Assembly: GCA_902805615.1 (NCBI GenBank)
Contig: CADCTQ010000655.1
Coordinates: 1-52,019 of the forward strand
Origin: an uncultured Cytophagales bacterium
GTDB lineage: Bacteria; Bacteroidota; Bacteroidia; Cytophagales; 172606-1
Direction: 5' to 3'
DNA: 52,019 nt
Below are positions 26,502-52,019 of this stretch, piece by piece (position 1 is the stretch's first letter; the number at the start of each line of letters is the position of its first letter). A program made the position numbers and the translations under genes. A model generated the notes under the pieces. That model ran no database searches. It was given only the letters and a program-made list of their open reading frames with translations, and was not told the DNA's origin.

Positions 26502-28142
26502 TTACAGGTAGGCCGGCTCGGCCAGCTTTGCCTCTGCTTCTTCGGCGCCGGAAGCGTACAGCAGTTCTTTCTCCCCGAACAGGCGTTCGGCAATTCGTCC
26601 CGACTCCCGGCAGTAGGCGATCAGCTTGTTGGAGGCGATGATGGGGTTGGAGGCTTCGGTGTACTGAATGCTGCTGATGAACTTGAGCCAGGGCTCCATC
26701 CCCATCGCGTACACGTACACTTCTTTGGGGTGAAACGTATCCACGAGCTTTTTACCCCTTTCGTAATCCGACCCGGCCAGCCGCCGCGAGCCGTCCTTGT
26801 CGCGGGCCAGTTCTTCGGTGAGCAGCGGGCCGTACAGCCAGGTGAGCGGGGCGCCTTCGCATTCCATGCCCAGGAACACCACGTCCACGTCGCCCACCTG
26901 CTTCTGCACGTGCTCGTATAGCCGGGCTTCCAGGTTGCAGGCGTCGGCCACGAAAAGGATTTTGAATGCCCCGATCTGCACGTGGTAACACAACTTGGAG
27001 TGGATGTTGAGGTCGCTGTGCTCGCCGATGAAGGGAATGCCCCGGATGCGGCAGTCCCGGAACGCGATCAGCTCCATCTCCCCGAGTTCGGTCACGTTGG
27101 GAAACCCGATGTGGTTGAACATCAGCTTCAGGTTGGGGTCTTGCAGGGCGCCCGAAGTCGTGCGGGGTACGATGATGTTTTTGACCTTGTGCCGGAGCGG
27201 CAGCAGGGTTTCGAATAAAATGTGGTCCTGGTGGTTGTGCGTAATGAGCACGTAGTCAATGGTGTCGGGCAGGTCCGCGTCCGAGAACCGCGACACGTCG
27301 TGGGCGTACCCGTAGTAACTGATCAGCGGGTCCACCAGGATGCTTACCTCGCGGGTTTCGATCAGGATGCAGGCGTGCCCGAAGTAGCGCATCCGCACTT
27401 TGTCGCCCTGGTACTTCTGGTAGGCCGGCGGCGGCGTGGTGGTAAAAAACGTTTCGAACAGGGCCTGGTTCGCTGCGCCGGCCGGCAGCAGGCGGCGCAC
27501 GTCCGACAGCAGCCCGGGGGTGCGCTTCATCCGGCTCACCGCGTCAATGAACGGGTGCCCGAACGGAATGTCCAGGTGCAGTACCTCGTCGTCGTCCACC
27601 CGCGGCGTGCTGAGCACGAAGGGCCGGTCGTCGTTGTCGGTGAGCCACAGGGCCACGCTCTGCATGGACGGGTCGTAGTGTTCGCCCCCGTACAGCAGGG
27701 CTTCGAAAAACCGGAACGACGGGTTGTTGTTCAGGTCGTAGGTCAGCTCCACGTAGCCTTTCAGCGGCTCGGGCACCTGTTCGTAGAGCCCGTCCATCGA
27801 GTACCCCTTGGGGTGCTTTTTGAGCAGGCCGTCCAGCGCCTTGATCGCCTCCGACAGCCCGACCAGGCTTTTGCGTTCGGCCAGGGTCTTGTCGCGCAGT
27901 TGCCGCACGGCTTCCTTTTTCCCGATGGGGATGTCCATGAACGGCCCCCCGAGCATTTTGGGGTTGCGGACGGCGCCGGCGTGTACGTGCGGCGCCTGGA
28001 GGTAAGAACCCATGATCTTGAGGTGGCGGCCGGTGATGTTCATGGCCGCAGTGGCCGGCGAAATGAGGTGACTCCAGGCGTACCACCGGTCAATCAGCGG
28101 CTCAATGACAACGTTTGGCTTCAGGTATACCAGTTCTTCCAT
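26502..28142 (-). CDS. CmlA-type di-iron beta-hydroxylase acting on a carrier-bound amino acid
   Basis: This 546-aa protein has a metallo-beta-lactamase fold C-terminal half and a 240-residue N-terminal domain, the layout and size of CmlA of chloramphenicol biosynthesis. CmlA beta-hydroxylates an aminoacyl group while it sits on an NRPS carrier domain, using an oxo-bridged di-iron centre. The metal motif HxHxDH is present as HNHQDH near residues 300-306, the extra Glu that marks oxygenases rather than hydrolases is in IGEHSDL near 372, and the later Asp ligand is in FVADACN near 398. These positions closely match those that I recall for CmlA (305-310, 377, 403). It is the last gene of the NRPS run, 32 nt after the monooxygenase gene. 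Which module it serves is unknown. A plain MBL hydrolase is unlikely because of the Glu and the N-terminal domain. Confidence 0.85.
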   Translation of the reverse strand: MEELVYLKPNVVIEPLIDRWYAWSHLISPATAAMNITGRHLKIMGSYLQAPHVHAGAVRNPKMLGGPFMDIPIGKKEAVRQLRDKTLAERKSLVGLSEAIKALDGLLKKHPKGYSMDGLYEQVPEPLKGYVELTYDLNNNPSFRFFEALLYGGEHYDPSMQSVALWLTDNDDRPFVLSTPRVDDDEVLHLDIPFGHPFIDAVSRMKRTPGLLSDVRRLLPAGAANQALFETFFTTTPPPAYQKYQGDKVRMRYFGHACILIETREVSILVDPLISYYGYAHDVSRFSDADLPDTIDYVLITHNHQDHILFETLLPLRHKVKNIIVPRTTSGALQDPNLKLMFNHIGFPNVTELGEMELIAFRDCRIRGIPFIGEHSDLNIHSKLCYHVQIGAFKILFVADACNLEARLYEHVQKQVGDVDVVFLGMECEGAPLTWLYGPLLTEELARDKDGSRRLAGSDYERGKKLVDTFHPKEVYVYAMGMEPWLKFISSIQYTEASNPIIASNKLIAYCRESGRIAERLFGEKELLYASGAEEAEAKLAEPAYL

Positions 28143-28174
28143 GAGAGGGTAGGGTTAGGGGGTAAGTAATCGGG

Positions 28175-29572
28175 TCATTGGGCAAGCGCCGCCGGCGGGC
28201 CGGCGGCGGCGGACAGACTTTCCCGGTGTTTGCGCAGCAGCGACGGGTAGTCGAGGTGCGGCCACCGGCTCTCAATGTTTTCCAGGCCGGCAATCTGGTC
28301 GAGGAACTTGTCGTTGGTTTCGCTCAGGGCCAGCGCCTCGGCGTACGGTGCGTTGCTGAAGGACACCAGGCTGTAGGCGGAGGTCCACCAGCCGGGGTAC
28401 TGCCGGCAGAGGTGCGCCTCGATCTGTTTGCGCAGCAGAAACGCGGCATCGGCCGTTTTCTGGCTCATTTCCAGGAAATTGCGGTAAGAGAGTTCGGCAA
28501 TGGCGTTGGCGTCGGGCCGGCGGATCTGCTCGAAGCGGCCCAGGGCCCGGCCCCAGTCGGCGGCGTCTTCGGCCAGCAGCCGGCCGAGCAGGTGGCAGTC
28601 TTCAAACCCGGCATTCATGCCTTGCCCGTAGAAGGGCACCATGGCGTGGGCGGCATCGCCCAGCAGCACGGCCTTGCCGCCGTAGGTCCACGGCGCGCAG
28701 CGCACGGAGGTCAGCGACGTTTCGGGATTGCTCCGGAATTCCCCGGCCAGGTCCGGCATCAGGGGCAGCGCATCCGGGAAATGCCGGTCGAAAAAGGCTT
28801 CGGCCCGGTCGTCGGTCCGCAGGCCCGCAAACGCGTTTTCCCCTTCCCGGTTCATGAAAAGCGTACAGGTGAACGAGCCGTCGGCATTGGGCAGCGCAAT
28901 CATCATGAAGGCGCCGCGCGGCCAGATGTGCAGGGCGTTGGGCTCCAGTTGCCACTGGCCGCCGGCCGCCGGGATGGTCAGCTCTTTGTAGGCCAGTTCC
29001 AGGTTGCTGCGCCGGCACGTAAAGGCGGGGCAGGTCTGCTCGAACGCATGCCGCAGCGCCGAGGCAATGCCGTCGGCGCCGATCACCAGCCGGCTGCCGG
29101 CCTGCTCGGGCAACCCGGTGCGGGCGTTGTGGAAGTCGAGCCGCAGCGCTTCCAGGTCAACGGCCGTGCATTGCCGGTCGAAGTACAGGCGCAGGTTGGG
29201 CTCGGCTTCCGCCTGGTCGAGCAGCAGCCGGTTGAGCAGGGACCGGGAAACGGAGAAGATGGATTCGCCCTCCCGGCCGTAGGGCTGGAAAGAGCGCCTG
29301 CCGCCGGCCGCGTGAATGGCTCTGCCGTACATGGGAATGGCGGCCTGCCGGATGGTGCCGTCGAGGCCGACGGCGGCCAGGGCGTTCCAGCCGCGGCAAC
29401 TGAGCGCCAGGTTGATGGAGCGGTTGCCGGCCGGGCTGCCCTCGCGCGGGTCTGCCCGCCGTTCGAACAGGTTTACCGAAAGGCCCTGCCGGGCCAGCAT
29501 CATGCCGATCATGGGGCCAACCAGGCCGGCGCCCAGCACGCAAACGTCAGCGGGGTAGGGAGGTGTGTTCAT
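28175..29572 (-). CDS. kmo: Kynurenine 3-monooxygenase homologue (FAD-dependent)
   Basis: This 465-aa flavoprotein has an N-terminal FAD fold (VCVLGAGLVGPMIGMMLA), the family phrase RSINLALSCRGWNAL, VIGADGIASALR, the active-site strand MMIALPNADGSFTCTLF and the FAD ribose motif GDAAHAMVPFYGQGMNAGFEDC. These are features of kynurenine 3-monooxygenase, which makes 3-hydroxykynurenine with NADPH and O2. The C-terminal 90 residues keep the helical region but are not clearly membrane-spanning. No other kynurenine-pathway gene is in the window, and the gene is embedded in the NRPS run. It probably prepares a hydroxylated aromatic building block or tailors the peptide, rather than serving NAD synthesis; that is an inference. 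Confidence 0.85.
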   Translation of the reverse strand: MNTPPYPADVCVLGAGLVGPMIGMMLARQGLSVNLFERRADPREGSPAGNRSINLALSCRGWNALAAVGLDGTIRQAAIPMYGRAIHAAGGRRSFQPYGREGESIFSVSRSLLNRLLLDQAEAEPNLRLYFDRQCTAVDLEALRLDFHNARTGLPEQAGSRLVIGADGIASALRHAFEQTCPAFTCRRSNLELAYKELTIPAAGGQWQLEPNALHIWPRGAFMMIALPNADGSFTCTLFMNREGENAFAGLRTDDRAEAFFDRHFPDALPLMPDLAGEFRSNPETSLTSVRCAPWTYGGKAVLLGDAAHAMVPFYGQGMNAGFEDCHLLGRLLAEDAADWGRALGRFEQIRRPDANAIAELSYRNFLEMSQKTADAAFLLRKQIEAHLCRQYPGWWTSAYSLVSFSNAPYAEALALSETNDKFLDQIAGLENIESRWPHLDYPSLLRKHRESLSAAAGPPAALAQ

Positions 29573-29618
29573 GGGATCAATGGGGGGTGGGGGTACGCTG
29601 CAAGGGGGGAGGCGCCGG

Positions 29619-30605
29619 CTACTTTACCTGGTCGAGGTACCGGCTGTCGGTGAGGGCCTTCATGAATTCCACCATGTCGGCAATCTCCCCTTCGTCCAGG
29701 GGCCGGGTGCGCTGGGCCTTCAGCAGGTGGTGCACGTTGCTCTCGATGGGAAAATTGTCCATGTCGTTGTAGAACACCACCACTTCCCGGAGCGTCCGCT
29801 GGGAACCGTCGTGCATGTAGGGCGCCGTCACGGCCACGTTCCGCAGGGGCGGGGTCTTGAAGCGGCCGCGGTCTTCGGGCTTGCCGGTGCGCGAAAACAA
29901 CCCGGGGTCGGCCGGGCTGTGGATGCCCAGGCTCACCAGGGAGTCGGAACTGAAGTCCGGCCCGGCGTGACAAGGTTCGTTGGCGCAGGTGTTCTCCTTG
30001 AAGAACAGCCGCAGCCCGCGCAGGGCCGATTCGCTCAGGGCATTTTCGTCGCCGGCCAGGAACCGGTCGTAGGGCGAGTCGTACGCCGTGAGGGTGCGCT
30101 CAAAGTCGGCAATGGCCCGGCAGATGTACATCGAATCGGGCGCCGCGCCGAACACGCCCCGGAACGCCTGCCGGTAGAACGGGTCTCGCTGCACCCGCAC
30201 CACGGCCTCCCGCATGGACAGGTTCATCTCGTGGGGGTTGGTGATGGGGCCGGCGGCTTGTTCTTCGAGCGACTTGGCCCGGCCATCCCAGAAGAAATGC
30301 AGGCGGTTGGCGCTGTAGGTCACCGACGGCGAGTTGCGGAGCGTAGGCACGCCGCCGGTGCCCATGCTGAAGGCCTGGTTGTCGGCAAAGGCCAGTTCGG
30401 GCTTGTGGCAGGAAGCGCAACTCAGGGTGCTGTCGCCCGACAGGATCGGGTCTTTGAAAAGCCGCTCCCCCAACTGGACCGAAGTCTTGGGCAGCTCTTC
30501 GGCGGGCGACAGCACCTGGTACCCCGTGGAGACGAGAAACGCAACCAGTGCGATCAACGCCATTCCGGCCGGGCGCACCGGGCCGGGCATGCAAATGTTC
30601 TTCAT
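29619..30605 (-). CDS. Di-heme cytochrome c peroxidase/MauG-family protein with CX4CH haem site
   Basis: This 328-aa periplasmic protein has an N-terminal hydrophobic segment (MALIALVAFLVSTGYQVL) for export or anchoring. The first haem site is CASCH (near residue 62). The second is CANEPCH (near 205), which has four residues between the Cys pair instead of two; the codons are unambiguous. FFWDGRAKSLEEQA, the conserved MHDGS late in the chain and overall size fit the CcpA/MauG family. Members reduce peroxide or, as MauG does, oxidise aromatic side chains. In this cluster an oxidation of the peptide or of a kynurenine-type ring after export is conceivable. It starts 61 nt after the beta-helix gene. 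Confidence 0.88.
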   Translation of the reverse strand: MKNICMPGPVRPAGMALIALVAFLVSTGYQVLSPAEELPKTSVQLGERLFKDPILSGDSTLSCASCHKPELAFADNQAFSMGTGGVPTLRNSPSVTYSANRLHFFWDGRAKSLEEQAAGPITNPHEMNLSMREAVVRVQRDPFYRQAFRGVFGAAPDSMYICRAIADFERTLTAYDSPYDRFLAGDENALSESALRGLRLFFKENTCANEPCHAGPDFSSDSLVSLGIHSPADPGLFSRTGKPEDRGRFKTPPLRNVAVTAPYMHDGSQRTLREVVVFYNDMDNFPIESNVHHLLKAQRTRPLDEGEIADMVEFMKALTDSRYLDQVK

Positions 30606-30666
30606 ACGGAGGGTGGTAAGCGGGTTTTTTTGGATGAGCAGGCAGGTTGCCGCGAACGGGGCGGGG

Positions 30667-32460
30667 CTATTTTCGCTGGGCAAAGACCCAGGGCAGGAAC
30701 TCGGGCACGTCGCGGGTGATCGTATTCCAGCATTTTTTTCCCGTATCGGGAAACTCCTTGAACTTCACTTTGGCGCCGGCCACGCGCAGGTCGGCCATGA
30801 TCAGGCGCTGGTTGCGCTGGCTGAGCCACTCGTCGGAATCGCCCCACACCACGTACATGGGTACTTTGGCGGCCTGTTTGGCCGACAGGGCGGTGAACCG
30901 GAAAAAGCCCCCCATCGGGACCAGCGCGGCAAACTTCTCGGGGTAGTCGAGGGCCAGGTCCCACACGGCGCTGCCGCCGGTGCCCGCGCCCATCGCGTAT
31001 ACCCGGCCCGGGTCAATCTGGTGCGTGGCGATCAGCGAATCCACCAGGTCCACGCAGCTTTGCAGCGACCAGGTGAAGGCGAAGTTGTAGCGGCTTTTCC
31101 ACTGGTCCTCGTGGGGCGGCAGTTGCGGCGCCACAATGTAGCAGGGAAACTTTTCGCGGTTTTCGGGGGTGGCCAGTTGCCACAGGAAGTGCCGCAGTTG
31201 CCGGGTGTTGTCGTCGCCCCGGTCTTCGTAATCGTGCAGGAACACGATGAGGGGATACTTTTCGCCGGGGTTTGGGCGTTGCGGTGCCACCAGCCGGTAC
31301 TGGAGCGAATCGCCCCGGTCGTTGGTGAAGCGGCCGGCCTGCGTCAGCGACAGGTTGTTGTAGAGCAGGTCGTAGTCCATGCCCGCCGCCCGCAGGCCGT
31401 CCACCACCACGTTCTTTCTTTCGGCAATCGCCACCGTGTCGTTGCCCGCCAGGCGGACCTCATTCGCGTCGGCCAGGAAAGCCGGGTTGCCCTCCGTCAG
31501 GAACACCCGGGTGTCGGTGATCTCCAGGCGTTTGCCGGCGGCGGCCCGGGTCCGGGCGGGTTGGTTGACGGCAATGCCGGCGTGGTCGGTCACCCGGAAC
31601 ATGGCCTGGCTGCCGTCGAGGGTCATGCCGTCGGCCACCAGGTAGCCGTTCTGGCGGAAGTTGTCGGTGGGCTTGTCGTTGAGGCGGCAATGGGCGATCA
31701 CGCAGTTTTCCGAGGCCGTCACGTTGATGCTGCCCACCGTTTTCCAGGGCCACCGCTCCATGCCGTGGCCGGCGTCCACCTGGTGCCGGGTCGGAATGGC
31801 CGGGTCGGGCAGGACGGCGTTGTTTACCTTCAACCCGAGCAGGATGAGGTTTTTGTGCAGTTGGCCGGCCCGGGGCATTGGCGCGCCGAAGGGCTTGTTG
31901 ACCAGGCTGACCGTGGCCCGGTTGATGTCGAGGTATACCAGGCCGGTGTTTTTGAGCGGCGCCTGGGCGGTGCGGATCACCTTGGGGTACGACACGGGCA
32001 GGAGCCCTTTGTCGGTGGCTTCGGGCACGTACGCCCCCGCCGCCCGTACGTCGTATTTGGGGAACACAAACCGGGTGGGCAGCTCAAACCCGTCCGTCCG
32101 CGCGTCGGCGTTGCCGGCCGGTGCGTCGCCCCGGAGCACGACGCCCTCCCGGAGTTGCAGGTCGTAGTGCAGGTAGTACGTACCGGCCGGGAAGTAGAGC
32201 ACCCCGCCGCCCTGGGCGGAAAGCCCCTCCAGGGTGGCCGACAGCTTTACCGAATCCACCACGCCGTACGTCTTTACCAGGCCCTCCACCTGCCGGGCGT
32301 TCACCACCTGGTCCCAGCGGATCTGCTGCGTCCAGTGCGCACCCGCGCCGGGGTACCGGGTCTGGTAAGGGTTGTCGGTGGGCTGGGCCGTCAGCCCGCC
32401 CGCGGCGACCAGGGCTACTCCCGCGAGGAGCCACGCCGAAAGAACACGTATTTTTTTCAT
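30667..32460 (-). CDS. Beta-helix domain fused to a degenerate alpha/beta-hydrolase
   Basis: This 597-aa exported protein starts at MKKIRVLSAWLLAGVALVAAGGLTAQ; a longer frame was rejected. Residues 35-370 resemble a pectate-lyase-like beta-helix, opening with VNARQVEGLVKTYGVVDSVKLSATLEG and GGGVLYFPAGTYYL. Residues 385-597 match the PHB-depolymerase-like esterase fold (YPLIVFLHDYEDRGDDN, DLVDSLIATHQIDPGRVYAMG). The nucleophile elbow GxSxGG is replaced by GAGTGG, and the usual catalytic His region (GHxSW) reads GKKCWN. Both Ser and His are lost, so hydrolysis by the normal triad is not expected. It may bind polysaccharide or peptide. It is co-oriented with the exporter gene and sits inside the NRPS run. 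Confidence 0.8.
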   Translation of the reverse strand: MKKIRVLSAWLLAGVALVAAGGLTAQPTDNPYQTRYPGAGAHWTQQIRWDQVVNARQVEGLVKTYGVVDSVKLSATLEGLSAQGGGVLYFPAGTYYLHYDLQLREGVVLRGDAPAGNADARTDGFELPTRFVFPKYDVRAAGAYVPEATDKGLLPVSYPKVIRTAQAPLKNTGLVYLDINRATVSLVNKPFGAPMPRAGQLHKNLILLGLKVNNAVLPDPAIPTRHQVDAGHGMERWPWKTVGSINVTASENCVIAHCRLNDKPTDNFRQNGYLVADGMTLDGSQAMFRVTDHAGIAVNQPARTRAAAGKRLEITDTRVFLTEGNPAFLADANEVRLAGNDTVAIAERKNVVVDGLRAAGMDYDLLYNNLSLTQAGRFTNDRGDSLQYRLVAPQRPNPGEKYPLIVFLHDYEDRGDDNTRQLRHFLWQLATPENREKFPCYIVAPQLPPHEDQWKSRYNFAFTWSLQSCVDLVDSLIATHQIDPGRVYAMGAGTGGSAVWDLALDYPEKFAALVPMGGFFRFTALSAKQAAKVPMYVVWGDSDEWLSQRNQRLIMADLRVAGAKVKFKEFPDTGKKCWNTITRDVPEFLPWVFAQRK

Positions 32461-32513
32461 GGGTACATTGAAGTTTAGGGTTGAAGCAGGGCGGAGACGG
32501 GCAGCGGGCCCGG

Positions 32514-34178
32514 CTACCCCTCGGTGGCGACCAGCGTGGATTGCCGGGCGTAAACGTCCTTGGCGATGTAGCCGTCGTGGAAGGTGACCACGCGGTCGGC
32601 GTACTCGAAATAATGGTCGTCGTGCGTAACGGCCACCACCGTTTTGCCCATGCTTTTGAGGAGGGGGAGCAACTGCCGGTAAAAATAGGCCCGGAAAGCA
32701 GGGTCCTGCTCGGCCGCCCATTCGTCCAGCAGGAACACCTGCTTGTTTTCCATCAGGGCGTACATCATCATCAGCCGTTTCTGCTGGCCCTTCGAGAGCT
32801 TGGAAGTGGCCCGCTGGGTTTCGTCGTCGAAGCGGACCACGTCGGTCATCCGCAGCATCTCCAGGTATTCCCGCCACGGGCCGGCCTGGGCATTGATGTT
32901 GAAATCGTCGTAGTGCTCATTGAACAGGTAGGCGTCCGTGAAGATGGCCGAGAGCTTGTCGCTGTAGGAAGGGTAGTTCTGGGGCAGCACGGGGCACTCG
33001 TTCACGTAGATGTGCCCGCCTTCCGGCTGGATCAGGCCGGCCAGCAGCAGCATGAAGGTACTCTTGCCGCTGCCGTTTTCCCCCACCACGAAAACGGTTT
33101 CTCCCCGTTGGATGGTCAGGTTGATGGGGCCGAGGGTGAACTTGCGCTTCAGCCGTTCGTCGTGGTACGAATAGGTGATGTTTTCGAAGCGGATGCTGGT
33201 AATCGCTTCCTCCGGCATGAGTTCCCCGTAGCCGTCGGACTTGCCCAGGTAGGAGTTCATTTCCTTTTCGAAGTTTTCCATCCGCTCCAGGGAAATGTTG
33301 GCCCGCGTCAGGAAGGGAAAGGCGTTCATGATCATGCTGATCGGGCTCATCAGGTAGAGGATCACGATCACGAAGGTGGTGGTCTGGGCCAGGTTCACCG
33401 GGTAGATGCCGGGGAGCAGGAACACGATCACGCCCAGGATGATGTACCAGCTGTAGCTGCCGAACAGTTCGTTGTTCATGTAGCGCACCGACGTGCTGAT
33501 TTCGAGGTGCTTGGCGCCCATCCGGTTTTTCCGCAGGAACCGGGTGAAGAGGTTCTCGTTGCGCCGCATGCTCATCTTGATCTCCTTGAAGCCGTGCAGC
33601 AGGTCCTGGAGGTAGCGGTAGTAGTCGTTTTCCAGGTCGCGCAGCAGGTTGAGGTCGCGGGCAATGGCCCGGTTGCGCAGGAAGTAGTAGATGACCAGCA
33701 CCGAGGTGACCAGCATGGTGATCAGCGCGGTCACCGGCGAGGTCCAGCAGAGGTACACCAGCCCGCACAGGATCACGATCATGGCGTTGGTGGAATCCAC
33801 GAAAAACCGCGGGATCTGCGAGAGCACCTTGGCGTCGCCGATGGCCGTGTACACTTTCTGCACGCCCAGCTTCTGGAAAGTTTCGTACGTGGCGAACCGG
33901 ATCTTCTGGAGGATGGACAGCTCGAAGTCGAAGAGCATGTCGTTGGCAAAGGTGATGAGGGTGCCCTGGAAGTAGCGGCGGCACGCAAACGATACCACCA
34001 GCAGCACGATGAAGGCCGCCCATTCGTAGCCGTTCAGCCACGTAAACTCCTTTTCGGCCCGGATGTTGTCGTTGATCAGGATCAGAATGCTGCTGTAGAG
34101 GGCGCTGTTGAGAATGCCCAGCGCGATGATGAGGAAGAAGAATTTGCCTTTTCCGCTCAGGAACCTTAAAATAGTCAT
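32514..34178 (-). CDS. SyrD/PvdE-type peptide-export ABC transporter
   Basis: This 554-aa fused permease-ATPase has the length and sequence style of the cyclic-peptide/siderophore exporters SyrD and PvdE. Six membrane helices occupy about residues 10-300. The ATPase has Walker A GENGSGKST (about 364), the signature LSKGQQKRL (about 458), Walker B VFLLDEWAAEQDP and a switch His in VAVTHDDHYF. The variants LSKGQ and DEWAAEQDP are typical of this family and unlike the multidrug-type exporter at 13500. It should carry the finished or near-finished peptide across the inner membrane. It lies 31 nt after the M28-like gene. Confidence 0.92.
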   Translation of the reverse strand: MTILRFLSGKGKFFFLIIALGILNSALYSSILILINDNIRAEKEFTWLNGYEWAAFIVLLVVSFACRRYFQGTLITFANDMLFDFELSILQKIRFATYETFQKLGVQKVYTAIGDAKVLSQIPRFFVDSTNAMIVILCGLVYLCWTSPVTALITMLVTSVLVIYYFLRNRAIARDLNLLRDLENDYYRYLQDLLHGFKEIKMSMRRNENLFTRFLRKNRMGAKHLEISTSVRYMNNELFGSYSWYIILGVIVFLLPGIYPVNLAQTTTFVIVILYLMSPISMIMNAFPFLTRANISLERMENFEKEMNSYLGKSDGYGELMPEEAITSIRFENITYSYHDERLKRKFTLGPINLTIQRGETVFVVGENGSGKSTFMLLLAGLIQPEGGHIYVNECPVLPQNYPSYSDKLSAIFTDAYLFNEHYDDFNINAQAGPWREYLEMLRMTDVVRFDDETQRATSKLSKGQQKRLMMMYALMENKQVFLLDEWAAEQDPAFRAYFYRQLLPLLKSMGKTVVAVTHDDHYFEYADRVVTFHDGYIAKDVYARQSTLVATEG

Positions 34179-34209
34179 AAGCCGTGTAGTTGGGTTGGAG
34201 GGGTAGCGA

Positions 34210-35523
34210 TCAATAATTGGCTTCGGTGAAACTGCGCTGGTACACGGTGGCGTGGACGGGGAGGGCCAGCCGGGCCACCGACGCCAGCGCGGCCCGGGTA
34301 ATGTTGGCCATGAAGGCGGCGTTGATGCGGGCCGGGGTGTCGTCCTTGGAATTGTGGCCCGAGTTGCGGCTCATGCCCCCGTCGGTGATGTAGAGGGCCG
34401 GGTATTTGCGGTACCAGAACGCGGCGTGGTCGCTGTCCATGAGGAAGAAGGTGGATTCCCCGTACCCGGACGCCTCCATGGGAATCACTTTCAGGCCCTG
34501 CACGTGTTGCCGGGCCGACTGCATGAACAGGCCGGCCAGGGGTTTGGAAGCCGTATTGGAGATGCTGGCCACGAAGTCGCCCCGGAACTGGTTTGCCGCA
34601 ATGGCCTGGTAGGCTTCGGGCACGGTCTTGCCCCAGTCTTCGGGCACCTTGTGGGTGTTGAGCGAATCGCGGTACGTGCCGATGGCGTCGAGGATGAGGG
34701 CGGCCTGTACCCGCTCCTGCCGGCGGATGCCCCCGTGGAACACGAAGTAGTTGCTGCCCCGGTACTCCTCCACCGACAGGTCGAAGCCCACCCCGGCGAT
34801 GGTGTTGCGGAAGTGGTGCCCCGACAGCACCCGCATGATCTCCAGCATGGCCGCCAGCCCGGTGGCGTTGGCGTTGGCCCCGGGGCTGCCCCGCACGGCG
34901 TCGAAGTGCGCCCCCACGATCACCAGGTTCTTTTCGTCGGTTTGCCCCGGGTGCCGGCCGATCACGTTCTGCCCCGCCACGCCGGCGTACTCAAAGTCCT
35001 GCCGCACCGCCTGCAACTGCGCCCCGCCGAACACGGATTCGATCATCGCCTTGGTGGCGGCCAGGTGCCGCTTGCCCTTCTTGGTTTCGTGGTTGCGTTC
35101 CCCGCTGATGAGCAGCAGGTCTTTCATCATCCGGGCCGTATCCACCTCCCCCAGCAGCTCTCCGACGTTGACCGGGTACCCGTCGTCGGCGATCAGCTTG
35201 AAGTGCGCCTTTTTGTAATCAATGCCCGTGCCGGCGTAGGACCACTCGATCTTGCGGGCGTTGCCCACGGCAACCGCGCTGCCCACGTCGCCCGTGGCGC
35301 CGGCCGTGTTCACGGCAAAAGGCAGCGCCGGGGCCGGCGCCACGCGGAAGGCGATTTCCACCCGGGCGTCTTCCGGGTCGGCAAGGTCGTAGGTGATGCG
35401 TACCCGTTTGGCAACCGTGTCGGCGGAGACGGTCACGTTTTCAAGGGCCGGTGGCCGGTTCTGGGCCGGCGCCAGGTGCGCGGCGCAGCACCCCAGCCAA
35501 AGGGCAATGTGGTTGAATTTCAT
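34210..35523 (-). CDS. M28-like peptidase with altered metal site
   Basis: This 437-aa exported protein has a short signal peptide (ALWLGCCAAHLAPAQ), a fibronectin-like N-terminal domain (about 24-125, PPALENVTVSADTVAKRVRI) and an M28 domain. First metal ligand: His in VGAHFDAV (near residue 202). Catalytic Glu pair: DLSVEEYRG. Later ligands: Asp in LILDAIGTY and His in NSGHNSKDD. The bridging Asp of the usual GADDxASG is missing; the segment reads GANANATG. Normal di-zinc chemistry is therefore doubtful, and it may be a one-metal enzyme or a binding protein. Placed between the last NRPS and the exporter, it could trim, release or bind the peptide. Confidence 0.82.
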   Translation of the reverse strand: MKFNHIALWLGCCAAHLAPAQNRPPALENVTVSADTVAKRVRITYDLADPEDARVEIAFRVAPAPALPFAVNTAGATGDVGSAVAVGNARKIEWSYAGTGIDYKKAHFKLIADDGYPVNVGELLGEVDTARMMKDLLLISGERNHETKKGKRHLAATKAMIESVFGGAQLQAVRQDFEYAGVAGQNVIGRHPGQTDEKNLVIVGAHFDAVRGSPGANANATGLAAMLEIMRVLSGHHFRNTIAGVGFDLSVEEYRGSNYFVFHGGIRRQERVQAALILDAIGTYRDSLNTHKVPEDWGKTVPEAYQAIAANQFRGDFVASISNTASKPLAGLFMQSARQHVQGLKVIPMEASGYGESTFFLMDSDHAAFWYRKYPALYITDGGMSRNSGHNSKDDTPARINAAFMANITRAALASVARLALPVHATVYQRSFTEANY

Positions 35524-45000: not shown

Positions 45001-48000
45001 CGTACGCCACCCGCTCCGGCGGCACGTTCCGGTCAATGGGCAGGTAGACGGCGCCGGTCTTCATGATCGCCAGCATGACGGTGAGCAGGTCGGCGGAGCG
45101 TTCCATGCGGAAAGCGACCACTTCGCCCCTTTGCAGCCCGTACCCGGTGAGCAGGTAGTGGGCAAACCGGTTGGCCCGGTCGTCGAGGGCGGCGTAGGTA
45201 AGCCGCGCATCCCCGTGGGCCACCGCCGCCGCACCCGGCCGGCGGTCCACCTGCTCCTCGAACAGGTCCACCATGGTCCGCCGGGCGGGGAAGTCGAACC
45301 GGGTCTGGTTAAAGGCCCGCATCAGCCGCAGTTCGGCCGCATCCACGACCGGCGTTTCGGCCACCCGGGCGTGCGGATTGCCGAGCACGTTCCGGGTCAG
45401 TTCCCCGAACCGGTCCAGCAGTTGGCGGACCAGCGATTCGGAGTACACCAGCGCGTTGTACTCCAGCTTGAGCGACAGCTCGTCGGTGGGATGGATGATG
45501 GCGACCAGGTCGTATTGCGTATGCTTGTAGGCCCGCACGTCCTCCACCTCCCAGTCCACCCCGAACCCGTCCGCCGCGGCCGCCGTTGCCGGGGGCAGGT
45601 TTTCGAACACGATCACGTGGTCGAGCAGTTGCTGCTTCAAAGGGCTGGCCGCCTGTACGCGGGCCAGTGAGCAATACTGGTGGGTTTCGGCCGCAACGGC
45701 ATCTTCCTGTACCTGCCGGAACAGGCCGGCAAACGTCGTCTGGGCGTCGTACCTCACCCGCACGGGAACGGTGTTGATGAACAACCCCGTCATGGTCTCG
45801 ATGCCCGCTACTTCCCCGGGCCGGCCGGAAACGGTTTTGCCGAACACCACGTCCCGGGCGCGGGTGTGCCGGGCCAGCAACACGCCCCACAGGGCCTGGA
45901 TGAAATTACCGGGGGTGACGCCCAGTTGCCGGCTCAGGTCTTTCAGCTCCCGGGTCTCCTGCCGCGACAGCCGGGCAACGGCCGCCGCCGGGGCAAACCC
46001 TTCCGCGGGCTGGCCGGTCACGGGCCGGTCCTTCAAAAAGCTGGCGCTGGTGTGGTAGCCGGCCAGGTACTCCTGCCAGTATTGCACCGTGCGGGCGGCA
46101 TCCTGCTTCTCCAGCCACTGGATGTAACTGCTGAAAGGCTTTACGGCCGGCAGGTGCAGCGGGGCCCGGCGGGCAAAACCGGCGTACAACGCCACGAATT
46201 CCGACATGAGTACGCCCATGCACCAGCCGTCCATCAGAATGTGGTGGCTGGTCCACACCAGCAAATGATCGGCAGGGCTGCTTTTCACCACGGCAATCCT
46301 GACCAGCACGCCGCGGCCCAGGTCAAAGGGCGTGGCCCGGTCGCGCTGCAAAAATGCCTCGGTCTCCGCCGACTGCCCGGCCCCGTCGTAGCCGCTTACG
46401 TCCAGCACGGCAACGGCCGGACTGCGTTCCCGCAGCACAACCTGCACGGGGCGGTCGGTTAGCTGGTGATAAAACACGGTCCGCAGGATGTCGTGGCGGG
46501 CCACCAGGGCCTGCATGCTTTTTTCAACCAGCGCCGGGTCCAGCGCCCCCTTGATCCGGTAGGTCACCTGGTAGTGGTACGCATCGGAAAGGGGGGCCAC
46601 CAGGGACTGGAACAGCATGCCTTCCTGCATGGGGGAAAGCGTGTAAACGTCCTGCACGGCGGCTTGCAGGTGCGTGGCGGTGTCGGCCTGCAACGATTCC
46701 AACTGGGGGATGGAAAGTCCTTTGAAGGTGAGGTCAGCGGGGGTAAGGGTGGTGTGGGGCCGGCTCAGGCAGTGGTCCACCAGGTCGAGCAGGCTCTGCC
46801 GGTAGGCTTGCGCCCACCTCTCCATGAGGACCGGCTCGAACGCCTCTTCCTGGTACTGGAGGCGGACCGAGAGCACCCCGGCCGCTACCATCACCGACAC
46901 CTTCAGCGTGCCGTCGGCGGCGCCTCCCCCGGCCGTGTCTTCGCCCTTGTCCAGTTGGCTGATCTGCCAGTCTTCCCCCCCGTCGGCTTCCTGGAACTGG
47001 CCCCAGTAGTTGAACACCACCGAAGGGGCCGGCAGGCTGCGTTCGGCTTGCGGATGGGACTCGTCCTGGGAGTTGGGTTGTTCTTGCAGGTAGCGTACGA
47101 TGCCGTAGCCCAGGCCCTGGTCGGGCACGGCCCGCAGCGACTCCTTGACCCCCACCAACTGGCGGCCGGCCGGCTCCTGGCAACTCAGCCAGTAAGGGTA
47201 CAGGCTGGTGAACCAGCCCACCGTGCGCGAGACGTTCACCCCGGCCAGCACCTCCTGGCGGCCGTGCCCCTCCAGCAGCAGCAGCACCTTGGGGCAGTCC
47301 CAGAGCTTGCCGATGGAGAGGCCCAGTCCGGCCAGCAGCACTTCCTGGGGCTCGTTGCCGTAGGCCAGCGGCGCCTCCAGCAGCAGCTGGCTGGTTTGTT
47401 GGGGGCTCAGGCTGAAGAGCAGTTGCACCAGTCGGCTTTCGCTGCCTTGGGGCAGGGGCTTGGCCAGGGGTCCCTGCCGGGGCCACTGCTGGGATAGCCA
47501 GTACTGGCGCTGGGCCTGCATGGCGGGGCTTTGGGCGTAGTGAGTGAGTTGTTGGGCCCAGCGCTGGTAGCTGTCGGTCTTGGGGGGCAAAAGCAGGTTT
47601 TGCTTTGCGCAGGCGGCCGGGTAGAGGCTCTTGAAGTCCTCCAGCAGGATGCGCCAGGAGACCCCGTCTACGACCAGGTGGTGGACCACCACCAGGAGGC
47701 GGTCACGGTCGGGGCAGCGCAGGAGCAGGGCCCGCAGCAGGGGCCCCTCTTCGAGCCGGAAGCTTTCATGCTCTTGCTGGCAGTGCGCACGCAGCTGGTC
47801 CTGCCAGCGGGGTTGTCCGGAGAGGTCCGCTGCCTGGGTCAGGTCTACCACCCGGAGGGAAGGTTGGAGTCCCTGGGGCTGGTTGAGTTGCTGCCAGCGG
47901 CCGTGCTGCCGGGAGAAGCACATGCGCAGGGCGTCGTGGTGGTCGAGCAGGGCCTGCAAGACCAGGGTGAGGGCGGGGAGTTCGATGCGCTGGGGGCAGT

Positions 48001-51000
48001 CGAGCAGCACCGACTGGTTGTAGTGGTGGGGCTTTTTGAGGGCCAGTTCGAAGAAGGCGTGCTGGATGGGGGTGAGGGCGACGGGACCGCTCACGGGCAG
48101 TTGGGGGGGCAGTTGCTGCAAGGGCTGCACTTGCTGGGCCAGGTCCAGCAGGCGGGGGAAGCGGAAGACCTGGCTGACCTGGAGCAGGTAGCCCTGCCGG
48201 TAGAGCCGGGAGACGAGTTGGATGGCCTTGATGGAGTCACCGCCCAGGCGGAAGAAGTCGTCCTGGAGGCCCACGGCGGGTTTGGCCGAGAGGGCGGCCA
48301 CGATCAGGCAGAGGGCTTGCTGGGCGGGGCTGGCGGGAGGCAGGAAGTCTTGTTGGGGGAGTTGGTCCTGGGGCAGGGGCAGGCCGAGGCGGTCCACCTT
48401 GCCGTTGGGGGTGAGGGGCAGGCTTTCCAGCACCACCACCTGGCCCGGCACCATGTAGGCCGGCAACTGCTCCAGCAGGTAATCACGGATTCCCTCGGCG
48501 TTCACCTGGTCCGTGCCCACCACGTACGCGACCAGGCGGGTTTCTCCCGCTCCCTGGACGGCGTGCACGAACACGTCCTGGACACCCTCGATCTGCCGGG
48601 TGCGCCAGGCAATCTCGGAAGGCTCGACCCGGATGCCGCGGACCTGGATTTGTTCGTCGAGCCGGCCGGCGTATTCCAGTTCGCCGTCTTCCGTCCACCG
48701 CCCCCGGTCACCCGTGCGGTAGAGGGTTTTTTCGTCGTCGCGCCGCGCCGCGGGGTTAGGCAGAAACTTTTCGGCGTTCAAGTCCGGCTTTTGCAGGTAG
48801 CCTTCCGTGAGGCCGACGCCCGCCACGCAAATTTCCCCGGTGACCCCTTTCGGCAGGAGCCGCTGGCGGCTGTCCATCACGTACACGGCGGTATTGGCGA
48901 ACGGCTTGCCGATGGGAATGCTGCCGGACCGGTGGTAGCCGCCGGCCCGCCCGACGTCTACTTTGTGAAAACTGGCCCCGATGCACGCCTCGGTGGGTCC
49001 GTAGCCGTTGTAGAGGTCTTTGGTGCGGGCGTAGTGCAATGCCTCGGGCATCAGGATGGCCTCGCCCGTGGAAATGATCGCCCGCACGGAGGGCAGCGCA
49101 TCCCGGGCCAGCAGCTTGATGTAAGCGGGGGGGAAAATGGCGACCGTCACGCCCTCCTCGGCGAGCAGCCGGACCAGCAGCCCGGTATTCTCCTTGACCG
49201 GCGGACCGGCCACCACCAGGGTGGCGCCCGCGCCCAGGCCCATCAGCATTTCAACGATGGAAGCGTCAAAGGCCACGGAAGCGAAGGAAAGCACTTTGTC
49301 GGCGGGCGTAACGTTCAGGTAGTCAATGTGGTATTTGACCCGGTCCACGATGCTCTCGTGTCGGATGGGTACTCCCTTGGGCGTACCGCTCGTGCCGGAG
49401 GTGTAAATCACGTACGCCGGGCTTTTCGCCGAAGCCCGCACCGGCGGGGTGTAGGTGGGCGGGGCTGCCTCGCGCAGGGCTTCGTCCATGCCGACGACCC
49501 GCACGCCCGGCCCGAAAGGCTGATCCGTATGGGGCGGCCGGGCAATCACCACCGTGGCGCCGGTGTCGTGCAGCAGCCCTTTGATGCGTTCAATGGGGGT
49601 GGCGGGTTCCAGGGGCAGGTACGTTCCCCCGGCTTTGGCAATGGCCAGCAAGGCGATCACCGCGTGGTACGAACGGTCCAGGCAGACGGCTACGCAGTCG
49701 CCGGGGGCAATGCCGGCCCGGTGTACCAGGTGAAAAGCCAGCGTGCCGGCCAGCCCGTCGAGCTGCGCGTAGGTCAGCCGAACGTCCCCGTCCACCAGGG
49801 CGGTTGCCTGCGGCGTGGCCCCGACCCACGCTTCGACCAGGGCATTGAGGGGCGCGTCGCGGGGGTAAGCCACGGCGGGACCGCACAAGCCCAGCAGTTC
49901 GTCTTCTTCCGCCCGGGAGAGGAGCGAATACGCGCTTACCGGGCGTTCCGGCTGCGCAATGACCTGTTGGATGAGACTTTGCAGGTGGCCGCCCAGCCGG
50001 GTGATGAACGGGGTTTCGTACACGGCGCCGTTGTAGTTCAGCCGGACCAGCAGTTGCCGCCCGGGCAGAAAAATGACGTTCAGGTCGTAGTTGGTCTGCG
50101 AGAAGGAGTCCGACAGGGCGGTTTCCGCCTCCCGGGGCTGGTTCCCGGCGGGAGCCTCCCCGATCTGTTCGCTCAGGGGATAATTCTCGAAAATGAACGT
50201 GTGGTCCACCAGGCGCTGTTTCACCGGGCTTAACGCCTGGATTTCGGCCAGTGAAAAGTACTGGTAAGGCCCCTGCTCCAGGTTCTGCTCCTGCAACGCG
50301 GAGGCAAGGGCGATGAACGGGGTCTCTTCCGAATAGTTCACGCGGACCGGCACGGTATTGATGAGCAGGCCCAGCATGTATTCCACCCCCGCAATCTCGG
50401 CGGGACGGATGGTCGCTACCGCCCCGAAAACCACGTCCTGCGTATCGTTGTACCGGCCCAGGACAATGCCCCAGACGGCCCGCATCAACGCGTTGACGGT
50501 CACTTTGTACTGCTCGGCCAGTTGGTTCAACCCGTCCGTCAGGCCGGCGGGCAGCACCCACTCCCAGTCGCGGTTTTCGTAGCTTTTGCCGGCAAGGGCG
50601 GGCCGCTGGAGCGACGGGATGCCCGTGGGCTGTTCGAAGCCGGCCACGTAACCCGTCCAGTACTGCCGGGCGTCGTCCCGGTTCTGCTTTTCCAGCCAGG
50701 TAATGAACGACTTGTACTGGGCCGCGTAGGGCAGAACGGGCTGCCTGCCTTTCGACAAACTCCCGTAAATGTGGCTGTACTCCTGCAAGAGTACGCTCGT
50801 ACACCAGCCGTCCATGAGTACGTGGTGGTAACTCCAGACAAACTCGTATTCGGCGTCGGCCAGCCGGAACACCTTCACCCGCATCAACGGGTCCCGGGTC
50901 AGGTCAAAGCCCCGCTGCCGGTCCTGTTCGCGGAAAGACGCCAGGAATGCCAGTTGGCGCGGCCCCGGCAACTGCCGGAGGTCTTCCGTACCGAAATCGG

Positions 51001-51256
51001 CATCCCGCTGCCGGAGCACGACCTGCAATACGGCGTCCGATTTTTTATGGTTGAAGACCGTACGCAGGATGTCATGCCGCTGCACGAGCACATTCAGGCT
51101 TTTTTCCACCAGCGGCAGGGTGAGGGGGCCGCTGTAGCGGTACGCCACCTGGGAAAAATAGCCCAGGGCGTTTTCTTCCAGCAGGGAGTGGAAGTAAATG
51201 CCCTCCTGCAAGGGGGAAAGCTTGTAAATGTCTTGAATGTTTTTGCTGGTAAGCAT
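42062..51256 (-). CDS. NRPS, two modules: C-A-T-E-C-A-T-E
   Basis: This 3064-aa synthetase uses the ATG at 51256 (MLTSKNIQDIYKLSPLQEG); a non-ATG extension was rejected. C1 (HHVLMDGW near 143). A1 (FDASIVE near 663) with code DAVIITGIGK, identical to A1 of the next NRPS. T1 (GGDSIKA near 1007). E1 (HHLVVDGVSWR near 1190, EGHGRQE, FNYWGQF). C2 (LSPMQEGMLFQS; HHILMDGW near 1670). A2 (FDLSYTS near 2183) with code DLTKFGHVGK, close to known Asp codes. T2 (GGDSIRA near 2552). E2 (HHLVVDGVSFR near 2732, EGHGREE, FNYLGQF) to the end. Both T domains have the GGDSI form expected before E domains. Expected contribution: D-X then D-Asp. T1-E1 is unusually rich in Gln and Leu, and E1 is nearly identical to the E domain of the neighbouring NRPS. 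Confidence 0.95.
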   Translation of the reverse strand: MLTSKNIQDIYKLSPLQEGIYFHSLLEENALGYFSQVAYRYSGPLTLPLVEKSLNVLVQRHDILRTVFNHKKSDAVLQVVLRQRDADFGTEDLRQLPGPRQLAFLASFREQDRQRGFDLTRDPLMRVKVFRLADAEYEFVWSYHHVLMDGWCTSVLLQEYSHIYGSLSKGRQPVLPYAAQYKSFITWLEKQNRDDARQYWTGYVAGFEQPTGIPSLQRPALAGKSYENRDWEWVLPAGLTDGLNQLAEQYKVTVNALMRAVWGIVLGRYNDTQDVVFGAVATIRPAEIAGVEYMLGLLINTVPVRVNYSEETPFIALASALQEQNLEQGPYQYFSLAEIQALSPVKQRLVDHTFIFENYPLSEQIGEAPAGNQPREAETALSDSFSQTNYDLNVIFLPGRQLLVRLNYNGAVYETPFITRLGGHLQSLIQQVIAQPERPVSAYSLLSRAEEDELLGLCGPAVAYPRDAPLNALVEAWVGATPQATALVDGDVRLTYAQLDGLAGTLAFHLVHRAGIAPGDCVAVCLDRSYHAVIALLAIAKAGGTYLPLEPATPIERIKGLLHDTGATVVIARPPHTDQPFGPGVRVVGMDEALREAAPPTYTPPVRASAKSPAYVIYTSGTSGTPKGVPIRHESIVDRVKYHIDYLNVTPADKVLSFASVAFDASIVEMLMGLGAGATLVVAGPPVKENTGLLVRLLAEEGVTVAIFPPAYIKLLARDALPSVRAIISTGEAILMPEALHYARTKDLYNGYGPTEACIGASFHKVDVGRAGGYHRSGSIPIGKPFANTAVYVMDSRQRLLPKGVTGEICVAGVGLTEGYLQKPDLNAEKFLPNPAARRDDEKTLYRTGDRGRWTEDGELEYAGRLDEQIQVRGIRVEPSEIAWRTRQIEGVQDVFVHAVQGAGETRLVAYVVGTDQVNAEGIRDYLLEQLPAYMVPGQVVVLESLPLTPNGKVDRLGLPLPQDQLPQQDFLPPASPAQQALCLIVAALSAKPAVGLQDDFFRLGGDSIKAIQLVSRLYRQGYLLQVSQVFRFPRLLDLAQQVQPLQQLPPQLPVSGPVALTPIQHAFFELALKKPHHYNQSVLLDCPQRIELPALTLVLQALLDHHDALRMCFSRQHGRWQQLNQPQGLQPSLRVVDLTQAADLSGQPRWQDQLRAHCQQEHESFRLEEGPLLRALLLRCPDRDRLLVVVHHLVVDGVSWRILLEDFKSLYPAACAKQNLLLPPKTDSYQRWAQQLTHYAQSPAMQAQRQYWLSQQWPRQGPLAKPLPQGSESRLVQLLFSLSPQQTSQLLLEAPLAYGNEPQEVLLAGLGLSIGKLWDCPKVLLLLEGHGRQEVLAGVNVSRTVGWFTSLYPYWLSCQEPAGRQLVGVKESLRAVPDQGLGYGIVRYLQEQPNSQDESHPQAERSLPAPSVVFNYWGQFQEADGGEDWQISQLDKGEDTAGGGAADGTLKVSVMVAAGVLSVRLQYQEEAFEPVLMERWAQAYRQSLLDLVDHCLSRPHTTLTPADLTFKGLSIPQLESLQADTATHLQAAVQDVYTLSPMQEGMLFQSLVAPLSDAYHYQVTYRIKGALDPALVEKSMQALVARHDILRTVFYHQLTDRPVQVVLRERSPAVAVLDVSGYDGAGQSAETEAFLQRDRATPFDLGRGVLVRIAVVKSSPADHLLVWTSHHILMDGWCMGVLMSEFVALYAGFARRAPLHLPAVKPFSSYIQWLEKQDAARTVQYWQEYLAGYHTSASFLKDRPVTGQPAEGFAPAAAVARLSRQETRELKDLSRQLGVTPGNFIQALWGVLLARHTRARDVVFGKTVSGRPGEVAGIETMTGLFINTVPVRVRYDAQTTFAGLFRQVQEDAVAAETHQYCSLARVQAASPLKQQLLDHVIVFENLPPATAAAADGFGVDWEVEDVRAYKHTQYDLVAIIHPTDELSLKLEYNALVYSESLVRQLLDRFGELTRNVLGNPHARVAETPVVDAAELRLMRAFNQTRFDFPARRTMVDLFEEQVDRRPGAAAVAHGDARLTYAALDDRANRFAHYLLTGYGLQRGEVVAFRMERSADLLTVMLAIMKTGAVYLPIDRNVPPERVAYVLRDSGARAVVTDAPLPPAAAVVPAILFAQVDLSRLPAHRPGVPIAPEAALYLIYTSGSTGTPKGVLIPHRALTNYACAIRQAYGFGPQDRSLLLSSVAFDLSYTSIWPALAAGSELFILPETPYVDVEALLTQLVGDRITLLKTTPTLFNLLVNAPGFARLAPSLALRLIFLGGEKIKPRDLEQYWQAKGHDTLFVNHYGPTETTVGVITQPVAPRPGTGEGMDIAAFRERPVIGKPIFNAQAWVLDGDGQPAGMGMAGELCIGGPGLALGYLHQPGLTAEKFIASPFAPGQRLYRTGDLARWLPGGVVEYIGRMDDQVKIKGYRVEPGEIEQVMRTHPHVADAVVVARLQEGHPVLVGYLVPAAPLDPAQLRQYLKDRLPDYMVPAHLVAMEAFPLIENGKTDRNALPPVTEAAPAPVAPTEVAVAPAAPAEVPASPLAALVAEVFAKVLGVKQVRPEDDFFAIGGDSIRALQIVSRLYREGYRLEVRDLFNYPLIGQVTARVQPRSRLAEQGVITGAAPLTPIQHAFFARNLAQPHHYNQALLLHSEARFDEAILRRVFTRIQRHHDALRTRFERTPGGIRQVNQGDELPLALTVSDYRGLPDGPEQMAAEADRLQAGFDLATGPLMQVAVFRLDDGDRLLLAVHHLVVDGVSFRILMEDLGTLYAQAVRGEILELPLKTDSFQYWAERLVAYANSTAFRAEVPYWKKLLREPVPPLPPTQTTPPTPFPATAVRMQLDADDTARLLTGVNQAYGTTIKDILLAALGLAVREVFLAEKAWVMLEGHGREEVLPGVNVSRTVGWFTAMYPVLLSCHDHPDLSVQLKATKETLHQVPHEGIGYGLLAHLSDPEFREQVPFVSPQIVFNYLGQFDRDVENTALRVAEEPHGHTQDPAQPPQFELSVVGMITGGRLQMDFRFDPEKHAYPCVEELCFRYQYFLKRLIGHCAGKEERERTPSDFGYHDLSVEDLDAINSLFR
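46721..47400 (-). repeat. Copy A of a duplicated epimerization-domain segment
   Basis: This part of E1 in the C-A-T-E-C-A-T-E NRPS matches 51361-52019 almost base for base. Over 47083-47400 against 51702-52019 I count four mismatches in 318 nt. Similarity falls and small in-frame indels appear in the left half, and it ends near TTTGAAGGTGAGGTC at 46721. The match probably continues rightwards beyond the window for the other copy. Confidence 0.95.
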
Positions 51257-51321
51257 AGAGGAGGCGGTTATGAAGGGAGGAAGGGGTGGCTTTTGGGGCA
51301 AAGGGCGGCGGAAGGGCCGTG

Positions 51322-52019
51322 CTAGTCAAAGAAGGTTTCCAGGTCTTCCATCGAGAGTTCTTTAAAGGTGAGGTCAGCGGGGGTAAGGGTGGTGTGGGGC
51401 CGGCTCAGGCAGTGGTCCACCAGGTCGAGCAGGCTCTGCCGGTAGGCTTGCGCCCACCCCTCCATGAGGGCCGGCTCGAAAGCTTCCGCCTGGTACTGGA
51501 TGTGGACCGAGAGCACCCCGGCCGCTACGATCACCGACACCATCAGCGTACCGTCGGCGCCCTCTCCGGCCGTGTCTTCGCCCTTGTCCAGGGGGCTGAT
51601 CCGCCAGTCTTCCCCCCCGTCGGCTTCCTGGAACTGGCCCCAGTAGTTGAACAGCACCGAAGGCACCGGCAGGCTGCGTTTCTCCGGCCGGTCCGATTCC
51701 GCTTGCAGGTAGCGTACGATGCCGTAGCCCAGGCCCTGGTCGGGCACGGCCCGCAGCGACTCCTTGACCCCCACCAACTGGCGGCCGGCCGGCTCCTGGC
51801 AACTCAGCCAGTAGGGGTACAGGCTGGTGAACCAGCCCACCGTGCGCGAGACGTTCACCCCGGCCAGCACTTCCTGGCGGCCGTGCCCCTCCAGCAGCAG
51901 CAGCACCTTGGGGCAGTCCCAGAGCTTGCCGATGGAGAGGCCCAGTGCGGCCAGCAGCACTTCCTGGGGCTCGTTGCCGTAGGCCAGCGGCGCCTCCAGC
52001 AGCAACTGGCTGGTTTGTT
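51322..52019 (-). CDS. NRPS, C-terminal part only (epimerization domain), cut by window edge
   Basis: The last 231 or so residues of an NRPS lie here; the rest is outside the window. They form the second half of an epimerization domain, with the motif EGHGRQEVLAGVNVSRTVGWF, YGIVRYLQ and VLFNYWGQF, then the typical end LTFKELSMEDLETFFD. The protein therefore ends with an E domain and hands a D-configured chain to the C1 domain of the next NRPS, 65 nt downstream. Nothing can be said of its adenylation domains. Its DNA is nearly identical to E1 of that next enzyme. Confidence 0.93.
   Translation of the reverse strand, partial: QTSQLLLEAPLAYGNEPQEVLLAALGLSIGKLWDCPKVLLLLEGHGRQEVLAGVNVSRTVGWFTSLYPYWLSCQEPAGRQLVGVKESLRAVPDQGLGYGIVRYLQAESDRPEKRSLPVPSVLFNYWGQFQEADGGEDWRISPLDKGEDTAGEGADGTLMVSVIVAAGVLSVHIQYQAEAFEPALMEGWAQAYRQSLLDLVDHCLSRPHTTLTPADLTFKELSMEDLETFFD
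51361..52019 (-). repeat. Copy B of the duplicated epimerization-domain segment
   Basis: Second copy of the segment at 46721-47400, offset by 4619 nt at the right end and 4640 nt at the left (a net 21-nt in-frame length difference). It runs off the window, so its full length is unknown. Confidence 0.95.

Follow-up and report, generated by a model that had tools for sequence, protein, structure and literature searches.

The window, i.e., the whole stretch of 52,019 nt that was analysed, is probably the second half of a hybrid PKS-NRPS cluster of ~70 kb from a Bacteroidota family, the product of which would be a secreted, periplasmically matured PK-NRP bearing two kynurenine-type residues. The sequence shows which parts are present, to which families they belong and how they are conserved; the substrates, the order of the steps and the product are deduced from it. 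Five clusters of different Bacteroidota, one of which is cultured, combine two kynurenine-type positions with a dedicated enzyme for tryptophan oxidation and an exported di-heme oxidase.

Gene content of the window

The window corresponds to the full length of contig C655, from a Bacteroidota draft genome that measures 8.77 Mb. Its minus strand carries nine co-oriented genes, with intergenic gaps of 32, 46, 61, 53, 31, 52, 60 and 65 nt: two complete NRPSs and an NRPS fragment, an M28 peptidase, a PvdE/SyrD-type exporter, an esterase-like secreted protein (protein F), a MauG/MbnH-like di-heme protein, a KMO homologue and CmlA (Table 1). Gene coordinates and domain profiles thus bear out the initial annotation, which had counted nine genes in one orientation, 31-65 nt apart. 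The span that it had given (26502-52019) holds for the nine genes and not for the whole cluster, which extends left to ~18.7 kb and is truncated at 52019. By comparison with the Lewinella cluster (see below), this left extension comprises a TonB receptor, an AraC regulator and a stand-alone condensation domain, the GT8 gene being tentative.

A transporter gene flanking the cluster (11289-13010) shows 83% identity to a same-genus genome; contig C655 is thus host DNA, and contamination is ruled out as the origin of the window. A tRNA-Lys gene is localized at 16530-16605, ~2 kb off the left edge of the cluster.

Table 1. Position and assignment of the cluster genes in the window.
Feature	Position	Strand	Evidence
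NRPS fragment, C-terminal E-domain part, cut by contig end	51322..52019	-	Condensation-family match, positions 237-446; motif RTVGWFTS; aligns with Lewinella NRPS residues 3983-4179
NRPS B, C-A-T-E-C-A-T-E	42062..51256	-	Domain profiles
NRPS C, C-A-T-C-A-T, without thioesterase	35576..42001	-	Domain profiles
M28-family peptidase, secreted	34210..35523	-	PF04389, 74 bits; signal-like N-terminus; homologue in 5/5 clusters
ABC transporter for cyclic-peptide export, PvdE/SyrD type	32514..34178	-	TIGR01194, 306 bits
Protein F, secreted: pectate-lyase-like N-terminal part + alpha/beta-hydrolase	30667..32460	-	GAGTG, GXSXG serine absent; homologue in 5/5 clusters
Di-heme protein, MauG/MbnH type, secreted	29619..30605	-	CASCH; CX4CH; Tyr279 replaces peroxidase Met ligand
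Kynurenine 3-monooxygenase (KMO) homologue	28175..29572	-	Second copy besides KMO on contig C520
CmlA-type di-iron beta-hydroxylase	26502..28142	-	PF18456, 301 bits, + metallo-beta-lactamase domain
TonB-dependent outer-membrane receptor	23885..26314	-	PF14905, 316 bits; adjoins CmlA in Lewinella cluster too
AraC-type regulator, membrane-bound	21623..22786	-	PF12833, 63 bits; homologue in Lewinella and Saprospirales clusters
Stand-alone condensation domain, proposed release enzyme	19815..21323	-	PF00668, 175 bits; HHVLTDA intact
GT8-family glycosyltransferase, cluster membership tentative	18749..19570	-	PF01501, 34 bits; homologue directly behind MauG in Fibrella C64

Reconstruction of the cluster and its relatives

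With the CmlA protein as query, 411 relatives were found in public genomes, of which the best 80 were kept with their flanks. MauG and protein F are also found beside CmlA in only 3 of these best 80 of 411 loci. In one of these three, a Lewinella MAG, the whole cluster lies on one contig (97.7 kb). Its genes encode (i) a PPTase, SbnA, SbnB, a TDO homologue, PKS and luciferase-like proteins, five NRPSs and a carbamoyltransferase; (ii) an M28 peptidase, an exporter, a type II thioesterase, protein F, MauG, CmlA, a TonB receptor, an AraC regulator and a stand-alone C domain. The domain order of the last two Lewinella NRPSs is that of NRPS B and NRPS C of the window.

Contig C182, from the same genome as the window, matches the first half of the Lewinella cluster in gene order and A-domain codes. 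It carries SbnA (376 bits, above the cut-off of 350), SbnB (300 bits, slightly below the cut-off of 327), the TDO homologue (34349-35296), a carbamoyltransferase and PKS parts. One Lewinella NRPS spans both contigs: its residues 2137-3621 align with C182 (51%) and its residues 3983-4179 with the NRPS fragment of the window, leaving a gap of ~1 kb between the two. No exact overlap of the window end with C182 was found; C182 and the window would form one cluster, joined by synteny across this gap. Two other contigs were considered as the missing neighbour and rejected: C279, with a C domain at its end, has no overlap and another domain type, and C523, which ends in a C-family domain, has codes that do not fit the Lewinella order.

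The same gene set is present in four other genomes, i.e., the Lewinella, Saprospirales and Spirosoma MAGs and the cultured Fibrella aquatilis HMF5036. It is spread over several contigs in the Saprospirales MAG, over C261 and the L024 contig in Spirosoma and over C14, C39 and C64 in Fibrella; from their content, the separate contigs appear to be one cluster in each of these. All five clusters have in common the TDO homologue, MauG, protein F, CmlA, the M28 peptidase, the carbamoyltransferase and exactly two kynurenine-type A domains. Four of the five have a closely related exporter, Fibrella having a different ABC protein. Since the same set recurs in four other bacteria, the proposal is open to testing.

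The host genome contains a second large NRPS cluster (contig C208, L171-L175; 87 kb), with two CmlA genes, a carbamoyltransferase and a NusG-like gene in first position. UpxY-type antiterminator genes are localized near the starts of long clusters (L116:14829-15365, L123:17629-18153, L128:4866-5372, Fibrella C14 26603-27073 and G000 C208 730-1203). The three tested are above the NCBIfam cut-off and the others were recognised by tblastn. It is as if long Bacteroidota NRPS operons were read with dedicated antitermination.

NRPS modules and A-domain codes

The NRPS core motifs are present, in frame, in the C-A-T modules of the window. The codes of the A domains are DAVIITGIG (kynurenine-type, at 49426) and DLTKFGHVG (Asp-type, at 44860) for NRPS B, DAVIITGIG (kynurenine-type, at 40174) and DVWQAVTDG (at 37000) for NRPS C. 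As a control, the GrsA sequence gave the textbook code DAWTIAAIC.

Each of the five clusters contains exactly two A domains coded DA[VI][IV]ITG[VI]G, with one variant (DSVIITGIG). Within a set of 122 domains, these ten group as one clade with a support of 1.0. Their tail, TG[VI]G, is absent from the remaining 111 A domains of these genomes and from the 161 A domains beside the best 80 of 411 CmlA genes. The published kynurenine codes are DAWTTTGVGK for daptomycin and DAWTTTGVAK for taromycin (PMC9113097). The kynurenine-type code of the window matches the daptomycin code at 5 of 9 positions (6 of 9 for one Spirosoma domain), the tail TG[VI]G being common. If our reading is right, DA[VI][IV]ITG[VI]G could serve to flag kynurenine modules outside actinobacteria.

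One module separates the two kynurenine-type modules (Kyn-X-Kyn) in the window, Lewinella, Saprospirales and Spirosoma clusters; in the Saprospirales case the modules are on different contigs, the order of which is taken from the relatives. The kynurenine-type residue would occupy the fourth-last and second-last positions, i.e., Kyn-X-Kyn-Y, the first one being epimerised. The earlier suggestion of an exported peptide with D-residues agrees with the E domains, of which NRPS B has two and the fragment a truncated one. For the beta-hydroxylated residue that had also been proposed, an Asp-type module and CmlA are both present: CmlA combines the CmlA_N domain (PF18456) with a metallo-beta-lactamase-fold di-iron domain, the motif of which is HNHQDH (HXHXDH).

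TDO and KMO homologues

The cluster TDOs form a clade (100/99) apart from the other TDOs of the family, with one further member in Lewinella C101. The other TDO of the host, a fragment on C35, pairs with a same-genus genome outside this clade. Two His (H75 and H262, comprising the distal and the heme-ligand one), the substrate-binding Arg (R137) and the TGG motif (T281-G283) are invariant in all six members. The cluster TDO homologue is above the Pfam cut-off (91 vs. 34.9 bits), and the other TDOs of the family score equally low with the Pfam model; it is far below the cut-off of the NCBIfam equivalog (98 vs. 391 bits), thus its reaction could differ.

A different substrate is a rival reading: the special A domains would take another aromatic or ortho-amino acid, and the product of the TDO homologue would be other than N-formylkynurenine, as is known for other heme oxygenases of the TDO superfamily. 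The low scores, the incomplete code match and the occurrence of the TDO clade in one cluster without the code are in its favour. We consider it quite unlikely, given that the catalytic residues listed above are kept in six of six TDOs, that the sole TDOs found in other family genomes, also KMO-bearing, are equally divergent, and that the code tail fits the kynurenine code and not those of Phe, Tyr or Trp.

In Lewinella C101 (L166, ~63000-65600) the TDO of the cluster clade adjoins CmlA in a large NRPS cluster that has no kynurenine-type code; the product or substrate of that cluster may differ.

The KMO homologue of the window gives 319 bits against the Pseudomonas KMO 5fn0 and 46-50% against Bacteroidota KMOs. 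The KMO motifs (GRxxH, QPYGR, N and YS(M/L)V) are kept, together with the FAD fold and the kynurenine-binding residues of solved KMOs; the kept Arg, Tyr, Asn and Tyr correspond to the substrate-binding residues of the Pseudomonas KMO. An ordinary KMO is encoded elsewhere in the genome (C520), thus the cluster KMO is an extra copy. Three of the five clusters (window, Spirosoma, Fibrella) contain a KMO. Since it is absent from the other two, 3-hydroxykynurenine cannot be a general feature. In the family tree the branches are too long to tell whether the cluster KMOs have a single origin. This cluster showed no kynureninase gene, and the A domains, being internal, suggest an intact amino acid rather than an acid unit.

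The possible hydroxykynurenine-type ring of the initial annotation is, as far as kynurenine is concerned, much strengthened by the TDO homologue on C182 and by the two daptomycin-like A-domain codes, here and in four relatives.

Di-heme protein and protein F

The di-heme protein has a signal-like N-terminus and matches CCP_MauG with 180 bits. Its scores are below the curated cut-offs of both MbnH (TIGR04039, 211 vs. 363 bits) and MauG (TIGR03791, 191 vs. 444 bits); it is thus named MauG/MbnH-like, not MauG or MbnH. Alignments to 1iqc, 1eb7 and 6e1c reveal two c-type heme sites, Tyr279 at the Met-ligand position and no distal peroxidase His. A Tyr for the Met ligand and a lost distal His are features of MauG and MbnH, and the known members of this type oxidise aromatic residues of proteins. 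Three of the five cluster proteins have CX4CH as their second heme motif, the other two CXXCH.

Since the TDO accounts for kynurenine before assembly, the di-heme enzyme is likelier to act later, on the kynurenine-type side chains or on another aromatic group. Most likely, the MauG-type enzyme would oxidise, and possibly couple, the two kynurenine-type side chains. A more precise version is that it acts on the exported nonribosomal peptide and cross-links or ring-fuses the two kynurenine-type residues at i and i+2; where KMO is present, the pair would be 3-hydroxykynurenines and the result a phenoxazinone bridge within the peptide. Stated so precisely, this coupling is improbable. We know of no earlier small-molecule role of the MauG-type enzyme class; if true, the coupling would be the first one, and a new route to peptide macrocycles.

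In four of the five cluster copies of protein F, GXSXG has another residue in place of its nucleophile serine (GAGTG, GIDIG, GAGVG, GLDWG); in these F is probably no normal esterase, and a function as active esterase was discarded. The serine is intact in the Spirosoma F and in a second F copy of the host genome, on C420. A fold search (model of mean pLDDT 71) gave mainly esterases and DPP4-like hydrolases, which fit the C-terminal half. In a wide survey of 395 sampled genomes, the hydrolase domain of F by itself is common in Bacteroidota, and full-length F turned up in no genome but this one. Our guess is a binding or scaffold role beside MauG.

A partner protein could also be the substrate, as in MbnH/MbnP: the di-heme enzyme would modify, e.g., a Trp of protein F, and the peptide would be completed without it. 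F and MauG co-occur in five of five clusters, F has invariant Trp residues, and the nearest solved relative of the di-heme protein, the di-heme enzyme 6e1c, is MbnH. Moreover MopE, which is a partner protein in a similar system, contains a kynurenine derived from Trp, possibly the product of a MauG-like peroxidase (PMC3621798). Nevertheless, this genome (G000) has no match to MbnP (TIGR04052), which rules out an MbnH-MbnP pair proper; an F-type protein occurs on C420 of the same genome without a MauG gene on the contig; and the co-occurrence of MauG with the two kynurenine-type modules is equally complete. We consider modification of a partner protein unlikely.

Positions 4600-9838 of contig C420 (L176) contain a stand-alone C domain, an M28 peptidase and the F with intact GXSXG. 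This is a related release/maturation set of another cluster.

Proposed pathway

The following order is proposed for the kynurenine peptide: (i) the TDO of C182 would convert tryptophan to kynurenine before assembly, and KMO would convert kynurenine to 3-hydroxykynurenine in this cluster; (ii) SbnA/SbnB may provide diaminopropionate; (iii) the NRPSs would insert the kynurenine-type residue twice; (iv) CmlA would beta-hydroxylate a carrier-bound residue, Asp or another; (v) the stand-alone C domain would free, and perhaps cyclise, the chain; (vi) the PvdE/SyrD-type exporter would carry the peptide into the periplasm; (vii) there, the MauG-type di-heme enzyme, the M28 peptidase and protein F would complete it.

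The stand-alone C domain is proposed for release because the last NRPS has no thioesterase. It has a gene of its own in the window, Lewinella and Saprospirales, and in Fibrella and Spirosoma it follows the final T domain in the same protein; the existence of both forms suggests chain release in trans. The exporter is above the cut-off of TIGR01194 (306 vs. 286 bits). Pyoverdine is likewise completed after its export by PvdE, by periplasmic oxidation and peptide trimming.

Against the overall reading stand the 5/9 code match, the low TDO score, the member of the TDO clade without the code in C101, the absence of KMO from two of five clusters and the fact that the link to C182 is one of synteny. 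If it is right, the clusters define a peptide class with paired kynurenines and a non-protein substrate for a MauG-type enzyme.

The same building blocks are compatible with a siderophore or metallophore, in which beta-hydroxyaspartate (and o-aminophenol in KMO-bearing strains) would bind iron, the TonB receptor would re-import the peptide and the periplasmic enzymes would take part in maturation. Such a function is possible but somewhat unlikely. The TonB receptor and AraC regulator adjoin the cluster, Asp-type modules accompany CmlA, and the Chitinophaga chitinopeptins, with beta-hydroxyaspartate, bind iron (PMC9248904). On the contrary, no TonB homologue was found in the Fibrella contigs examined (C14, C39, C64), and the receptor is of the OMP_b-brl_3 kind, which has no known siderophore specificity.

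Comparison with known systems

No product of the cluster was found in the open literature searched, and the paper on NRPSs of activated sludge (PMC10681181) has no kynurenine content. No described cluster with this combination was found in the open-access literature searched (as distinct from a MIBiG or antiSMASH comparison), in agreement with the initial annotation. Each part is of a known kind; it is their combination that appears new to the open literature searched.

The chitinopeptin clusters of Chitinophaga (PMC9248904) are alike in being Bacteroidota NRPS clusters with a CmlA-type hydroxylase, an ABC transporter, sbnA/sbnB and a peptidase gene. They differ by an S8 peptidase (M28 here) and a separate thioester-reductase gene, and no TDO, KMO or MauG is described in them; tryptophan or kynurenine is nowhere mentioned in that paper.

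The daptomycin and taromycin clusters are actinobacterial, have one kynurenine (two here) and contain no KMO, CmlA, MauG-type enzyme or periplasmic maturation. They resemble the present clusters in the kynurenine-type A-domain code, with its common tail, and in a dedicated tryptophan dioxygenase (dptJ in the case of daptomycin).

MbnH/MbnP and MauG have in common with the di-heme protein the two heme motifs, the Tyr for the peroxidase Met ligand, the loss of the distal His and the export signal. They act on proteins, whereas here the gene belongs to NRPS clusters without MbnP and the second motif is CX4CH in three of five cases.

Pyoverdine maturation is a functional analogy, i.e., a PvdE-type exporter clustered with genes for a secreted oxidase and peptidase; no Pvd maturation enzyme is recognised here, and the peptide and the organisms are others.

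Finally, homologues of TDO and KMO also occur together in the NRPS clusters of actinomycin, pyrrolobenzodiazepines and sandramycin. In these, the amino acid is cut or cyclised to an acid unit (3-hydroxylated anthranilates or quinaldates).
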